Virus record (IMG/VR): IMGVR_UViG_3300020468_000095
Span: 1 to 20,765 of that record
Direction: 5' to 3' (one strand)
DNA from: a virus
Length of the DNA stretch: 20,765 nt
The position numbers and the translations under genes were made by a program. Of the stretch, positions 5,374 to 20,555 are shown in pieces; position 1 is the first letter of the stretch; every line of letters begins with the position of its first letter. Below the pieces are notes generated by a model that ran no database searches, was not told where the DNA came from, and was given only the letters and a program-made list of their open reading frames with translations.

Positions 5374-6243
5374 ATGAGTGTATATTTTTCCAGAGGGCCT
5401 AAACAAGAAAATGCTGGCCCTATCATACAGGTTCATAGTGAGAGATCAGCTGGTGTTAGTGCAATTAATTATCAGGGTAAAAAAGCAAGTCCTAATAATT
5501 GGAAAGATATTACTACTCTTACGGTCAATAAAAAATCAAATAATAGTATCATGCATCTTTCAATAAAAGGTTCTTGTCAAGCAAATAGTAGTGCTGCATC
5601 TCAAACAGTTCAGGTAACTGTCAGTAGGGATTCTGATTTTACTTCAATTGTAAGTTTTGGTGGTAATAGTTATCAATTATCCAGCAATGGTTCGGCAAAT
5701 TTTAATAATACATTTAATGGTGGCACTGAATATCAAGTAAGTTTTAATGCACCAACTGTTCGTGCTGTAAATATTACAAATAATGGTAAAACATTAGCAA
5801 TAGATGATAATAATGATCCTTATGATAGTGATTTTAATGATTTAACAGTGACTGTTAATAAAGGACGTTTTGTTGCTGCTGAAGGTGTAATAGATAATAT
5901 TGACCCTGATGTAAGCACTATTCACTATATACTAGACATAGAAAGAGGTGGTGCAGGAATTAGAGTATCTAGAGATTCTGGTAGTGGTAATCCTGATGAT
6001 GCAACCACAGTCATAGATTTGGGGGCAGCTACACCATCTGCGTACCCTGCTAACTCTGTTTCCTTTAGTCATTTTTTTATGGATTCGGGTGTGTCATCTG
6101 GTACTTCTAGATATAGGTTACAATTACAATGTAATAGATCATCTAATGCACCTAACAACAATGTTCAAATAAATGCTGATGCACAAGCGTCTCTAGAGGT
6201 AATAGAGGCTGGTGATGTAATTACTTCAAGCACAAATCCTTAA
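5374..6243 (+). CDS. Beta-rich virion protein with DFNDL motif, paralogue of preceding proteins
   Basis: 289 residues, starting three bases after the previous stop. It opens MSVYFS, like the preceding protein's MSVNFS. The N-terminal module (43-63, W-K-D-I-T-T-L-T-V then NNSIMHLSI) and the C-terminal end (245-280, SRYRLQLQC to SLEVIEAGD) match the shared module. Between them is an insert with an acid-rich stretch, DDNNDPYDSDFNDLTVTV (144-161), resembling the D-x-D-F-N-D-L-x-V motif of calcium-binding beta-sandwich domains such as DUF4114. Calcium binding is suggested by the pattern, not shown. The gene probably descends from the same ancestor as its neighbours, with a middle insertion. It is likely a virion surface protein; no enzyme motif is visible. 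Confidence 0.7.
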   Translation: MSVYFSRGPKQENAGPIIQVHSERSAGVSAINYQGKKASPNNWKDITTLTVNKKSNNSIMHLSIKGSCQANSSAASQTVQVTVSRDSDFTSIVSFGGNSYQLSSNGSANFNNTFNGGTEYQVSFNAPTVRAVNITNNGKTLAIDDNNDPYDSDFNDLTVTVNKGRFVAAEGVIDNIDPDVSTIHYILDIERGGAGIRVSRDSGSGNPDDATTVIDLGAATPSAYPANSVSFSHFFMDSGVSSGTSRYRLQLQCNRSSNAPNNNVQINADAQASLEVIEAGDVITSSTNP

Positions 6244-6273: not shown

Positions 6274-6924
6274 ATGGAAAAAATTAAAACACAAACTAAA
6301 ACACAAAAGTTCGATGAAAATAATATTTCTGAAAAAATTATTGATCATATAGGAATTTATGAAAATGCCTTTACCTCAGATGAATGTGATGAAATAATAA
6401 AAAGATTTGATAAAGCAGAAGGTGCATCTTACACATTTAATGGTAGAGATCAATTTAGTCAGGGAAAACATGGAAGACATGATCATCAAATTTTTCTTGA
6501 GCACATAAATACACAATTTGCAGTGGATGTGATGAAAACCGTTACTCAAAGAACCTTTAACAAATATGTTATTCATTATCCAGAATTAGATCATGGTGAT
6601 CCTTTAGGTTTATTCACATCAAAAATACAAAAAACTGAAGTTGGGGGTGGTTATCATATTTGGCACTCTGAATCAAATTCATTTGATTGTAGAGATAGAG
6701 TTGTAGTTTGGATGTTATATTTAAATGATATTCCTATAGAAAATGGAGGTGCCACAGAGTTTATCTACCAAAAATTATCCATACAACCAAAAAAAGGAAC
6801 AATTGTTTTATGGCCAGCAACTTATACTCATACTCATAGAGGTGGATTTTTAACGGGTGATACTCCAAAATATATTGCAACTGGATGGTATGTAAGAATG
6901 GCTCATGCAGATACAAATTTATAA
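6274..6924 (+). CDS. 2-oxoglutarate/Fe(II)-dependent oxygenase (prolyl-4-hydroxylase-like)
   Basis: 216 residues. The C-terminal half has the double-stranded beta-helix signature. The proximal iron-ligand pair is H131-x-E133 (in YHIWHSESN), followed by MLYLND, the NGGATEF turn (158-163), then WPATYTHTHRGG with the distal ligand H186 or H188, and K199 or a nearby residue for the 2-oxoglutarate carboxylate. The GT-x-x-x-WPA element is typical of this superfamily. The acidic ligand is Glu where prolyl hydroxylases more often have Asp. Such enzymes hydroxylate protein or nucleic acid side chains using O2 and 2-oxoglutarate, and are common in T4-like marine phages with unknown targets. The gene sits between fibre genes, so a virion protein is a possible substrate, but that is inference. 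The 30-base leader (6244-6273) is almost pure A/T with no clear Shine-Dalgarno. Confidence 0.85.
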   Translation: MEKIKTQTKTQKFDENNISEKIIDHIGIYENAFTSDECDEIIKRFDKAEGASYTFNGRDQFSQGKHGRHDHQIFLEHINTQFAVDVMKTVTQRTFNKYVIHYPELDHGDPLGLFTSKIQKTEVGGGYHIWHSESNSFDCRDRVVVWMLYLNDIPIENGGATEFIYQKLSIQPKKGTIVLWPATYTHTHRGGFLTGDTPKYIATGWYVRMAHADTNL

Positions 6925-16380: not shown

Positions 16381-17556
16381 ATGCAGTTACGTCCACATCA
16401 GAATAAGGCATTGGAAGCAATGGCAAGACATTCTAAGGGTCAAATCATTGTACCCACTGGTGGTGGCAAAACTCTTATTGCCATTAAGGATGCTATAAGA
16501 AGACTTAATGGTCTTACTGATCCAACTCTTGTTGTAGTTGCTCCACGCATCCTATTAGCAGAGCAATTATCATCTGAGTTCTTGGAAGAGATTGAGAATG
16601 TATCTGTGATGCACGTACATAGTGGTGAAACACATCATTATAGTACAACTAAGAGTGATAAAATTCAAAAGTGGGTAAGAAATACACAGGGAAGTAAATT
16701 AATCTTTACAACATATCATTCACTTCATAGATTAGTAGAAGCAGATGTTGTTGTAGACACAGTATATTTTGATGAAGCACACAACGCAGTGCAAAAGAAT
16801 TTCATAGAGTCAGTTGATTACTTCTCACTACCATTTAATTCTTTACGTTGCTACTTCTTTACTGCAACACCTAAGCACAGTAGAACACCTTTCAAGATAG
16901 GTATGAATGATAGTGATATATTCGGTAATGTTATCTGTAATGTACCAGCACCTAAGTTGGTAGAACAAGGTCACATCCTACCACCAAAAGTAAAAGTATA
17001 TAAGAGTGAGATAAGACAGAAAGATGAGATAACATTTGATGTAGAATGTAATCAGATCATGGATAATATTGATGACCATGAGACTAAGAAGATCCTCGTG
17101 TGTGCTAAGTCTACCAAGCAGATCCAAGGATTAGTATCATATGATAAGTTCCGTGACGAATTAGCATGGAGAGGTTATAATTGCATGTATATTACATCCA
17201 AAACTGGTGCAGTCATTGATGGTGAGAAAGTAACCAGAGATGAGTTCTTTAATGTATTAAGTGCATGGGGTAAAGATCCTGATAAGAAATTTGTTGTATT
17301 ACATCACAGTATCTTAGCAGAGGGTATCAACGTAAAGGGTCTTGAAGCGGTCTTGTTCTTAAGATCTATGGATTACATTGGAATATCACAAACTATTGGC
17401 AGAGTGATCCGTAAGGGTTGCGAAAATAAGAAATATGGGTTAGTATGTATACCAGTATATTCAAAGGTGGGCATCTCTACTGCACGAAAAGTACAGGCAG
17501 TTGTTGATACTGTATTTGAGAGAGGAGAACCAGCAATTTCTATAATAACAAAATGA
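16381..17556 (+). CDS. uvsW: UvsW-type superfamily 2 DNA/RNA helicase
   Basis: 391 residues. Helicase motifs in order: Q-like LRPHQNKALEAM (3-14), Walker A PTGGGKT (25-31), motif Ia APRILLAEQ (54-62), DEAH (131-134), TAT (161-163), a second RecA-like domain with AKSTKQI (242-248), LAEGINV (312-318) and QTIGRVIR (337-344). In T4, UvsW unwinds branched DNA and R-loops, turns off origin-dependent initiation and drives recombination-dependent replication. This protein starts directly at the helicase core. T4 UvsW is about 500 residues with an N-terminal DNA-binding domain, so that part appears to be missing. The start is supported by the promoter about 30 bases upstream, which leaves no room for a longer N terminus. 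The gene overlaps the next by ATGA (17553-17556). Confidence 0.9.
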   Translation: MQLRPHQNKALEAMARHSKGQIIVPTGGGKTLIAIKDAIRRLNGLTDPTLVVVAPRILLAEQLSSEFLEEIENVSVMHVHSGETHHYSTTKSDKIQKWVRNTQGSKLIFTTYHSLHRLVEADVVVDTVYFDEAHNAVQKNFIESVDYFSLPFNSLRCYFFTATPKHSRTPFKIGMNDSDIFGNVICNVPAPKLVEQGHILPPKVKVYKSEIRQKDEITFDVECNQIMDNIDDHETKKILVCAKSTKQIQGLVSYDKFRDELAWRGYNCMYITSKTGAVIDGEKVTRDEFFNVLSAWGKDPDKKFVVLHHSILAEGINVKGLEAVLFLRSMDYIGISQTIGRVIRKGCENKKYGLVCIPVYSKVGISTARKVQAVVDTVFERGEPAISIITK

Positions 17557-17999
17557 CTTCTTCCGTAGTTTTAGTCACAGGTGGATTTGATCCAATACAT
17601 AGTGGCCATATTTCATTATTAAATTCAGCAAAACAAATAGCACCAATGAGTGCCTTGGCAGTTGGTGTTAATTCAGATGATTGGTTGACAAGAAAGAAGG
17701 GTAAACCTTTTATGCCATCTAGTGAAAGAATTGATATTGTCAGAGCATTGAAAGTGGTTGATAATGTTATTGAATTTAATGATAGCGATGGAAGTGCAAA
17801 TCATGCCATTGAACAATGTTTACAAATATATGATAAGGTAATCTTTGCTAATGGTGGAGATAGACACAATGAAAATGTACCAGAGTATGATAAGTTTAGT
17901 GAAGATGAAAGAGTGGTATTTAGATGGGCTGTCGGTGGACTTGGTAAAAAGAATAGTAGTTCATGGATATTAAAAGAGTGGGATGAAAGAAATAGATGA
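17553..17999 (+). CDS. Cytidylyltransferase-family nucleotidyltransferase
   Basis: 148 residues. The start GGFDPIHSGHISLL holds the H16-x-G-H19 signature of HIGH-type nucleotidyltransferases, and the family's other elements follow: RKKGKPFM (47-54), R-x-x-I-V-R-A-L (59-66), ANGGDR (99-104) and K-N-S-S-S-W-I-L (133-140) for the ISSTxI-like site. Family members join a nucleotide to a phosphorylated small molecule, as in TagD (CTP and glycerol-3-phosphate) or the HldE/RfaE adenylyl domain (heptose-1-phosphate). The substrate cannot be read from the sequence. It could feed modification of sugars or lipids on the host surface. It overlaps uvsW and the methyltransferase by ATGA on both sides, so it is co-translated with DNA-metabolism genes. 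The length is usual for the family. Confidence 0.85.
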   Translation: MTSSVVLVTGGFDPIHSGHISLLNSAKQIAPMSALAVGVNSDDWLTRKKGKPFMPSSERIDIVRALKVVDNVIEFNDSDGSANHAIEQCLQIYDKVIFANGGDRHNENVPEYDKFSEDERVVFRWAVGGLGKKNSSSWILKEWDERNR

Positions 18000-18934
18000 A
18001 AGACACTATTTTATATGGTGACTGTCGTAAGACACTATCAGCATTTCTACCACAGAGTGCAAGAATGTGTGTGACATCTCCACCCTATTACGGACTTAGA
18101 GATTATGGTGGAGAGGAGCAACAAATAGGACAGGAACAAACACCCGAAGAGTTTGTAGATCAACTTGTGTCTGTATTCAGAGAGGTACGAAATGTATTAA
18201 CTGATGATGGGACTTGTTGGGTAAACATAGGGGATAGTTATTATAATTATAGACCTGGTAAAGGTCAATCATATCCAAAACAATCGGTATCTAAAACAAA
18301 ACAAGATCTACCAGATAAATGTAACAAACGTGGGAACAAATTACAGGGATTAAAAGAGAAAGATTTAATTGGTATTCCTTGGTTATTTGCTTTTGCTATG
18401 CGAAAAGACGGATGGTATTTAAGACAAGATATTATATGGCATAAACCAAATCCAATGCCAGAAAGTGTAAAAGATAGATGTACCAAGTCACATGAGTATA
18501 TCTTTCTGTTCAGTAAAAATAAAAGGTATCATTATGATAATGAAGCAATCAAGGAGCCAGCAAAGGATTGGGGAACCAGAGATAGAACTAATGGTAAGTA
18601 TCATAATGAGGGAACAGGACTGCAACCACATTCAGGCCTGACTAAGAGTTATGCCAAGAAGAATAAGAGAAGTGTATGGTCTGTAACCAAGAAACCATAC
18701 AAGGGAGCTCATTTTGCTGTATTCCCACCCGAATTGATTGAGCCATGTATATTGGCTGGTAGTAATAAGGGTGATACTATATTAGATCCATTCATGGGGT
18801 CAGGAACCACTGCTATGGTGGCAAAGAAGTTAGATAGATATTACTTAGGTTGCGAACTACATGACAACTATGGTGATCTAATAGAGCAAAGAGTATTACC
18901 ATATGAGAACAGGTTAGAAAAGTTTTTTTCATGA
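17996..18934 (+). CDS. DNA methyltransferase, beta class (N4-cytosine or N6-adenine)
   Basis: 312 residues. Motif IV, T-S-P-P-Y-Y at 27-32 (TSPPYYGLRDYG), precedes the AdoMet-binding motif I, DPFMGSGTT at 264-272 (with LGCEL following), which is the beta-class order. SPPY is more common in N4-cytosine enzymes but also occurs in N6-adenine enzymes, so the methylated base is undecided. IPWLFAFAMRKDGWYLRQDIIWHKPNPMPES (about 122-152) is a typical middle segment of such phage enzymes. No restriction endonuclease gene is nearby, so it is probably an orphan enzyme that protects phage DNA or marks it. The run of seven T at 18923-18929 lies in the last codons, and the stop overlaps the next start by ATGA. 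Confidence 0.88.
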   Translation: MKDTILYGDCRKTLSAFLPQSARMCVTSPPYYGLRDYGGEEQQIGQEQTPEEFVDQLVSVFREVRNVLTDDGTCWVNIGDSYYNYRPGKGQSYPKQSVSKTKQDLPDKCNKRGNKLQGLKEKDLIGIPWLFAFAMRKDGWYLRQDIIWHKPNPMPESVKDRCTKSHEYIFLFSKNKRYHYDNEAIKEPAKDWGTRDRTNGKYHNEGTGLQPHSGLTKSYAKKNKRSVWSVTKKPYKGAHFAVFPPELIEPCILAGSNKGDTILDPFMGSGTTAMVAKKLDRYYLGCELHDNYGDLIEQRVLPYENRLEKFFS

Positions 18935-18940
18935 AAAAAA
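18923..18940 (+). repeat. Perfect T7/A7 palindrome at gene junction
   Basis: TTTTTTTCATGAAAAAAA is an exact 18-base palindrome centred on the start codon of the next gene. The T7 run lies in the methyltransferase end and the A7 run just after the next ATG. A slip of -1 at the T7 would put the methyltransferase in frame with the halogenase-like gene; this is possible but not shown. Confidence 0.55.
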
Positions 18941-20076
18941 TACAAAAAATAGCAATTGTAGGAGCTGGTAATGCTGCGTGTCTGACTGCTTTACATTACC
19001 ATCTTTATGGTAGAATTATAAACATTGATACTATTGATGAAATTGAAATATATCATGATCCTAATGTTCCAATAGAAAAAGTAGGTCTAGGTTCTCAATT
19101 AAATGTAACTGATATTATTTTTGATGTATTAAATTTAAATTGGTATGATAATCCTATTGATGCAACATTTAAAACTGGTATATTATATGAGGGGTGGGGT
19201 AAAAAACAAGATAAAATATTTCATCCTTTTTCTGGAAAAGGAAATGCAATACATTATATTCCACATAAATTATCTAAATGTGTATTAGAATCAGGTCATT
19301 TTAATGTTATAGAAAAAAGTATAAGTGATCCTGAGAAAGAGATAGATGCTAATTATATAATAGATTGTAGAGGTAGACATAATAGAGATAAGAGTAATTA
19401 TGATACTCTTATCAATCCATTAAATGCTGTTCTTTTATCAAGTAAAGATAGTAAAGATCCCGATCTACATTACACAAGAACTGTTACCACACCGAATGGA
19501 TGGACATTTGTGATTCCCAATAAGGATAGTGTTTCTTATGGATACTTGTACAATAATACAATAACATCAGACAAAGAAGCAAAAGAAGATTTTTTAGAAA
19601 GATTTAATTTATCTGAAATTCATGATACATTAACTTTTGAAAATTATATGGCTAAAAATGTATTTGTAGGTAATAGAACTATTTTAAATGGAAATGCTTG
19701 TGGTTTTATGGAACCAATGGAAGCAAATTCCACAGCTTTTTTCCTTAATGTAGCAGAATATGCTTGGGATTGTATATTTGGAATTACACCTCCAAGTAAA
19801 TCTAATTATTTGATTAAAAAAATGATGAGAGAAATAGAAACTTTTATACTCTGGCATTATCAATATGGTTCTAAGTATGATACAGCATTTTGGGAGTATG
19901 CTAAATCACTTCCATTTTATCCTGATGAAAGATTTAGAGAATTAGTAAAAAATCCTGCCGATAGAGATAAAGTTCAAATGGAAATGCAGACAAAAGATAA
20001 TTTTATTCTGGAAGAATACGCATATGGACAATGGGCAACTCCCAGTATAAAAGTTTGGAAGGATGCTATGGAATGA
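18931..20076 (+). CDS. Flavin-dependent halogenase-like protein (tryptophan halogenase family)
   Basis: 381 residues. The N terminus has a dinucleotide-binding fold with VGAGNAACL (10-18), as in the GxGxxA/G box of flavin monooxygenases and halogenases. ATFKTGILYEGW (78-89) matches the region around the catalytic lysine of tryptophan halogenases (Lys79 in PrnA), so K81 is the candidate. GWTFVIP (190-196) corresponds to the W-x-W-x-I-P halogenase motif, with the second Trp replaced by Phe. NGNACGFMEPMEANST (253-268) matches the second FAD-contact motif, G(D)AAGF.(D/E)P(L)E. Family members are about 500-550 residues; here the substrate-binding C-terminal part seems cut down. Such genes are known from marine T4-like phages. 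The substrate is unknown, and halogenation is not certain since the WxWxIP motif is incomplete; a monooxygenase is an alternative. Confidence 0.8.
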   Translation: MKKIQKIAIVGAGNAACLTALHYHLYGRIINIDTIDEIEIYHDPNVPIEKVGLGSQLNVTDIIFDVLNLNWYDNPIDATFKTGILYEGWGKKQDKIFHPFSGKGNAIHYIPHKLSKCVLESGHFNVIEKSISDPEKEIDANYIIDCRGRHNRDKSNYDTLINPLNAVLLSSKDSKDPDLHYTRTVTTPNGWTFVIPNKDSVSYGYLYNNTITSDKEAKEDFLERFNLSEIHDTLTFENYMAKNVFVGNRTILNGNACGFMEPMEANSTAFFLNVAEYAWDCIFGITPPSKSNYLIKKMMREIETFILWHYQYGSKYDTAFWEYAKSLPFYPDERFRELVKNPADRDKVQMEMQTKDNFILEEYAYGQWATPSIKVWKDAME

Positions 20077-20555
20077 AAACAGTAGAAAGACATAATTATG
20101 ATGGTAATAATATTATAAAAACAAGGAAACTTGTTTTTGAACCTTATGATTTTAGTGAACAAAATATGTGTTTGGTAATCGGATTGATACAACAAAATCT
20201 TAAACCTGAGTTACTCAAACGTAAGAAATTAAAGTATAAGGATAATCCTACTCAGTATTATGGACACTGTTATCATGCTACACAGGCACTATATTATCTG
20301 ATGAATACAGATAAGTTAGTTCCTATGAGTGGTGAAGATTATAGAGGAGAAAAACATTGGTGGTTGGAATATAATGGTAACACCTATGATTGCACTGCGG
20401 AGCAATATTGGACAGTTGGTGAACTGCCACCTTATGAGAGTGGAAAGAAATCAAAGTGGTATGGATGGAAACAACGACCACAACAAATTTCATTGGACTT
20501 GATGGTCAAAGTATTGGGAAAGAGATTGGCTCTTGACAAAACAACTAACCCATGA
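20073..20555 (+). CDS. Conserved phage protein with Cys-His-Asp pattern, possible papain/transglutaminase-like fold
   Basis: 160 residues from ATG at 20073, which overlaps the preceding stop by ATGA as at the other junctions; the longer start at 20031 would intrude 46 bases into the halogenase-like gene. The segment YGHCYHATQALYYL (63-76) with C66, then KHWWLEY (94-100) with H95, and TYDCTAEQY (104-112) with D106, has the Cys-His-Asp order and spacing of cysteine peptidase or transglutaminase-like folds; W and Y residues surround the His as is usual there. A charged N-terminal part (about 1-60) has no recognised motif. No signal peptide is seen. It may act on proteins or peptides inside the cell, but function is inferred only from residue pattern; a binding role is possible. 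Confidence 0.7.
   Translation: MKTVERHNYDGNNIIKTRKLVFEPYDFSEQNMCLVIGLIQQNLKPELLKRKKLKYKDNPTQYYGHCYHATQALYYLMNTDKLVPMSGEDYRGEKHWWLEYNGNTYDCTAEQYWTVGELPPYESGKKSKWYGWKQRPQQISLDLMVKVLGKRLALDKTTNP

Follow-up and report, generated by a model that had tools for sequence, protein, structure and literature searches.

The window analyzed here, i.e. the whole stretch of 20,765 bases, is the virus fragment IMGVR_UViG_3300020468_000095, a contig of a marine T4-like cyanophage, whose tail fibre and helicase most resemble proteins of T4-like phages infecting Synechococcus and Prochlorococcus. Downstream of the tail-fibre genes, we found a run of five genes overlapping by ATGA, which encode a helicase, a cytidylyltransferase-like protein, a methylase, a short flavin-dependent halogenase (FDH) homologue, and a phrog_12251 protein (Table 1). 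The product of the fourth gene, the halogenase, matches the Pfam profile PF04820 (E 1.7e-30, 106.7 bits vs a cut-off of 21) as well as phrog_2928, annotated as "tryptophan halogenase" (E 5.5e-63), and this similarity is far above chance. RiPP genes, including those for YcaO, an NHLP precursor, or an exporter, were not detected in the window when its ORFs were compared with Pfam and phrog profiles. A 2OG-Fe(II) oxygenase gene (PF13640, phrog_61) is located at 6274-6924, upstream of the tail-fibre genes. In the phrog_12251 protein, a GHCYHATQALYYL...HWWLEYNGNTYDCTAEQ pattern recalls transglutaminase-like folds with Cys/His/Asp, and the family of this protein follows the halogenase in four loci, including that of the window.

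Table 1 Genes of the overlapping run and motifs of the window halogenase.
Feature	Coordinates	Strand	Basis
Cyanophage helicase, first gene of the run	16381..17556	+	profile matches
Cytidylyltransferase-like gene	17553..17999	+	profile match
N6/N4 DNA methylase, ATGA overlap with the halogenase	17996..18934	+	profile match
Short FDH homologue, 381 aa	18931..20076	+	ATG start, intact ORF; PF04820, phrog_2928
GAGNAA, residues 11-16, GxGxxA FAD-binding Rossmann motif	18961..18978	+	G11 and G13 invariant in 79 sequences
VGLGS, residues 51-55, corresponding to VGEST, the strap of long FDHs	19081..19095	+	profile alignment
K81, equivalent to the catalytic lysine (K79 of PrnA, K84 of SrpI)	19171..19173	+	alignment; 183/183 relatives
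F100-N105, short loop; long FDHs ~63 residues longer here	19228..19245	+	profile alignment
W191-T-F193-V-I-P, clade form of WxWxIP	19501..19518	+	alignment, relatives
F259-M-E-P-M-E264-A-N-S267, flavin/halide loop	19705..19731	+	alignment; E264 = PrnA E346
Downstream gene, 160 aa, phrog_12251, ATGA overlap with the halogenase	20073..20555	+	phrog match

The initial annotation of the gene had described a halogenase-like enzyme over 100 residues shorter than typical tryptophan halogenases, which carries GxGxxA, K81, WTFVIP (from residue 191), and GFMEPMEA. This description is borne out: the motifs can be read directly and align with the VirX1-type columns, the protein is short compared to VirX1 (530 residues) and to other solved halogenases (about 500-550 residues), and profile, fold, and conservation of the Lys/Glu pair support its halogenase-like nature. 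In a profile-profile alignment of the window family with eleven long cyanophage halogenases headed by VirX1 (probability 100%), K81 was matched to the catalytic Lys, W191 and F193 to WxW, E264 to the Glu of EPxE, A265 to Ser, and S267 to Gly. GFMEPMEA includes both E261 and E264. What had escaped the initial annotation is that the halide loop differs as well (EPMEANS vs EPLESTG in RebH), with A265 and S267 standing in place of the Ser and Gly of Fx.Px.Sx.G. Additionally, L53 falls on the column of the strap Glu, a place that is occupied by Gln in 159 of the 183 viral relatives. Compared to the long FDHs, about 63 residues are absent between W89 and H108, beside the active site, and the homology to VirX1 stops near residue 331, so that the C-terminal Trp-binding lid is missing. 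Thus, the protein has the general features of an FDH (PF04820 score, GxGxxA, catalytic Lys and EPxE Glu, FDH fold) and lacks those of canonical long tryptophan FDHs, namely WxWxIP, Fx.Px.Sx.G, the substrate insert, and the Trp-binding lid.

One pattern pair revealed at least 397 related IMG/VR contigs, and another query 122. Conservation was assessed in 183 viral short homologues of 347-414 residues, whose identity to the window halogenase reaches as low as 24%. K81, W191, F193, and F259 are invariant in all of them. Since one of the retrieval patterns contained GWTF and the invariance of F193 might therefore be circular, it was recounted in the 121 sequences retrieved without this pattern, all of which have Phe here. 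E264 is Glu in 181 of the 183 sequences and Gln in two divergent members. None of the 183 sequences has Gly where RebH has its halide-loop Gly; Ser, Ala, or Met is present instead. Two residues ahead, Ala takes the place of Ser in 132 sequences, and the loop reads A/S-T/S-S/A vs S-T-G in RebH. A dN/dS of 0.38 relative to a 90% relative (L001) shows that the window halogenase is under purifying selection. On these alignments, the altered WxWxIP motif is a signature of the clade and does not represent decay.

In several cyanophage halogenases, short and long, the catalytic Glu is exchanged for Gln (e.g. EPLQATS; L104, L106, L108, L109), and these copies are possibly weak or inactive. One viral contig encodes a tandem pair of short halogenases (L174:2916-5092), and tandem long halogenases are present in Syn10 (L098), where VirX1 is the second of the pair, and in S-RIM44 (L111). 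Both a long and a short halogenase are encoded by S-SSM7 and P-TIM40, which points to separate roles of the two forms.

The initial annotation had proposed structure prediction and a phylogeny with marine phage halogenases as checks. An AlphaFold2 model built with 79 sequences reached a pLDDT of 92.8 and a pTM of 0.91; it supersedes an earlier model (20 sequences, pLDDT 68) that was too weak. Among the PDB matches listed, all 50 neighbours are tryptophan halogenases (TMq 0.70-0.77), the best Foldseek match being PrnA (4z43, E 6e-24), and the window halogenase is thus predicted to adopt the FDH fold. In the phylogenetic tree, the viral short forms together with the SrpI orthologues are separated from all long FDHs with a branch support of 100/100, the long side comprising VirX1, other cyanophage copies, and BrvH-like bacterial copies. 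The SrpI orthologues are found on a long branch, which may reflect attraction, and their exact place within the short side is unsure.

Outside viruses, the genome collection yielded six bacterial or archaeal records. Three are loci from Rhodobacteraceae MAGs (L094-L096), which encode short forms of 411-434 residues with GWVFIIP and EPLEATA. In L095 (1709-13087), the halogenase is accompanied by a SagD-type YcaO/leader-binding protein, two NHLM exporter subunits, and a precursor ORF on the minus strand (5381-5629) ending in ...AGLCCCW. LCCCW is the core of SrpE (PMC10858898, PMC10286304), and the L095 halogenase matches K84, Y102, P105, Q106, Q107, V108, and Y110 of published SrpI at a constant offset of 6, S109 being the sole mismatch among eight checked positions; these SrpI positions come from subsequent publications of the group that described SrpI (PMC10858898, PMC10286304). 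Because of the LCCCW core and these matches, we read the L095 cluster as srp. Judged by the reported residues, not by the sequence of SrpI itself, the halogenases of L094-L096 are probably SrpI orthologues. L094 and L096 contain fragments of the same srp-type proteusin RiPP cluster as L095. Two contigs labelled "Euryarchaeota" look like mis-binned phage contigs: in L093 (1-579), a photosystem II D1-like (psbA) frame adjoins the short halogenase, and in L092, 2OG-oxygenase-like frames do so. Of 399 Pseudomonadota genomes, a single one harbored a short form at E<=1e-40, and this was an SrpI orthologue, which indicates that the short branch is essentially viral. The sole bacterial members found of the short family are the SrpI orthologues in their RiPP cluster.

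SrpI, encoded in the srp RiPP cluster of a sponge symbiont, is an obligate peptidyl-Trp brominase. Its bromination of a C-terminal Trp depends on the leader, chlorination does not take place, and free Trp is not a substrate (PMC10286304). Mutation of its catalytic lysine abolishes activity. Residues 104-110 of SrpI, the counterpart of F100-N105, were modelled as binding the peptide leader (PMC10858898), and this loop coincides with the site of the extra segment in long FDHs. The identity of the window halogenase to the SrpI orthologues is only 28%, and the strap Glu is kept in the orthologues compared to Leu or Gln in the viral clade.

Clustering of the neighbour genes in 94 loci did not reveal a constant partner or substrate gene beside the halogenase. 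2OG oxygenases, helicase, methylase, and cytidylyltransferase recur in varying order, and ATGA coupling of short halogenases to neighbour genes is frequent. In 45 of 89 related loci, 2OG-Fe(II) oxygenase genes lie within four genes of the halogenase (directly adjoining in 30), frequently as an upstream run of three or four. We regard this neighbourhood as a lead only, given that the loci are not independent and that cyanophages are rich in such genes. In eight loci (L034-L038, L063, L071, L077), three or four oxygenase genes (PF13640, one DUF6445-like) are located directly upstream of the short halogenase. Proteins with a C-terminal Trp were more frequent near the halogenase (58/489) than further away (24/595), but this difference was driven by a few repeated families and is given no weight here. 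A phage-encoded flavin reductase partner was likewise rejected, since PF01613 is absent from all 20 phage records searched; a Synechococcus elongatus control has one. The host therefore probably supplies FADH2.

Overall, our results suggest, with a probability of about 0.55, that the window halogenase is an active FDH of a short viral branch, which prefers bromide, acts on a large substrate, and depends on FADH2 supplied by the host; activity, halide preference, and substrate size are deduced here by analogy to SrpI and BrvH. FADH2, presumably from a host flavin reductase, would be bound by the box domain and react with O2 to the C4a-hydroperoxide, which a halide, most likely bromide, would attack in a loop that reads A-N-S where RebH has S-T-G. 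HOX formed in this way would be passed to K81, with E264 assisting. On a peptide, a protein, or some other bulky molecule, it would then halogenate an electron-rich ring, probably that of Trp/indole or Tyr, the substrate being presented at the side opened by the absence of the ~63-residue insert and of the lid. Every substitution of K79 of Thal abolishes activity (PMC7948982), and the invariance of K81 thus argues for halogenation. The changes in the halide loop are compatible with activity, as BrvH, which has Ser for Gly in this loop, prefers bromide (PMC5945002) and the S311A exchange in CHEESY1 has a moderate effect only (PMC12645471). What speaks against this reading is that the phage enzymes are accompanied by neither RiPP genes, a leader peptide, nor a constant partner gene, and that two divergent members have Gln at E264; the comparison with SrpI is weakened by the low identity, the possibly attracted long branch, and the different strap residue.

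Some points favor a small substrate instead. In vitro, the substrates of cyanophage VirX1 include many small aromatics (PMC8407142), SrpI itself can brominate C3 of indole (PMC10286304), and other cyanophage genes are metabolic, so that an active halogenase on a free small host molecule, such as indole, a pigment, or a signalling metabolite, is conceivable, though we consider it a minority option. The short clade is separated from VirX1 by the 100/100 branch, free Trp is rejected by SrpI, and the short enzyme has no Trp-binding lid (Trp4 motif, PMC8269204). Of the small or carrier-bound substrate suggested in the initial annotation, the small half lacks support, whereas the bound or large half gains indirect support from the kinship with SrpI and the loss of the substrate-side segment. 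The same annotation had raised the possibility that the protein has become a monooxygenase. WxWxIP, thought to prevent monooxygenation (PMC8407142), is indeed altered, the strap Glu and the Fx.Px.Sx.G loop, proposed for all active FDHs (PMC8407142), are both lost, and genes for 2OG-Fe(II) hydroxylases directly adjoin the halogenase in 30 of 89 related loci. However, K81 is kept throughout, orthologues of the proven brominase SrpI share W-x-F and the Gly-less loop, and some active FDHs lack WxWxIP (PMC8407142), so that the WTFVIP form is no bar to FDH status; conversion to a flavin monooxygenase hydroxylating an aromatic or a protein side chain is accordingly unlikely. Even less probable is a catalytically dead or HOX/H2O2-leaking relic with no dedicated substrate. 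Such a relic would fit the Gln at E264 in two relatives and the leakage of HOX by FDHs (PMC7948982), and it is difficult to reconcile with the number of related viral contigs, the invariant catalytic residues, the purifying selection, and the frequent ATGA coupling.

A more specific form of the large-substrate proposal, which we put forward as rather doubtful, is a dedicated protein halogenase of marine cyanophages that would brominate Trp or Tyr on proteins of the phage virion (tail fibre) or on a host protein, possibly together with the 2OG-Fe(II) hydroxylases that frequently adjoin it. If true, such bromination would represent a viral post-translational halogenation. A halogenase in a phage is less striking than the initial annotation implied: cyanophage "tryptophan halogenases" (T4-GC 212) were tabulated in 2010 with sizes of 1104 to 1593 bp (PMC3037559), so that short forms were already visible then, without discussion in that paper, their role was called speculative (PMC2984593), and VirX1 has been characterised (PMC8407142), its preference for iodination having since been questioned (PMC11021962). 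In the literature searched, we found VirX1 as the only characterised viral FDH and no description of the short W-x-F viral clade or of its tie to SrpI. For genes that have been listed for more than 15 years, the signature shared with peptidyl brominases provides a testable target class, i.e. peptides or proteins with bromide. In addition, the short viral clade provides many new compact FDHs of interest to biocatalysis. Genome mining based on the two motifs employed in PMC12645471, WxWxIP and Fx.Px.Sx.G, would miss this branch.

Among known systems, PrnA, RebH, and PyrH share the fold, being the best Foldseek matches, and the Lys/Glu pair with the window halogenase but differ in length (about 500-550 residues), insert, Trp-binding lid, WxWxIP, and ESTG loop. 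BrvH likewise has Ser in place of the halide-loop Gly (PMC5945002), whereas it is a long form with WxWxIP. VirX1 (cyanophage Syn10, PDB 6QGM) and the other long members of T4-GC 212 have the FDH fold, the phage origin, and the catalytic Lys and Glu in common with the window halogenase, and the Trp-binding helical lid is absent from VirX1 (PMC7948982) as well. VirX1 differs by its WVWNIP and LESTG motifs and the presence of the insert, its identity is 23% over part of the protein, and the 100/100 split places the window halogenase outside its clade. The "tryptophan halogenase" of cyanophages S-ShM2 and S-RIM14 is short, belongs to the same clade, and is 44% identical; its gene adjoins talC, whereas that of the window adjoins the methylase. 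SrpI resembles the viral clade in the absence of the ~63-residue insert, in W-x-F-x-IP, in the Gly-less EPxE-A-T-(S/A) loop, and in the place of the lysine, and it differs from the window halogenase by its location in a YcaO/NHLP RiPP cluster, which provides a dedicated leader peptide, and by the strap Glu (in the orthologues) vs Leu. The window halogenase, a short form with W-x-F-x-IP and a Gly-less loop and without RiPP machinery, is thus SrpI-like at most and not an SrpI orthologue.
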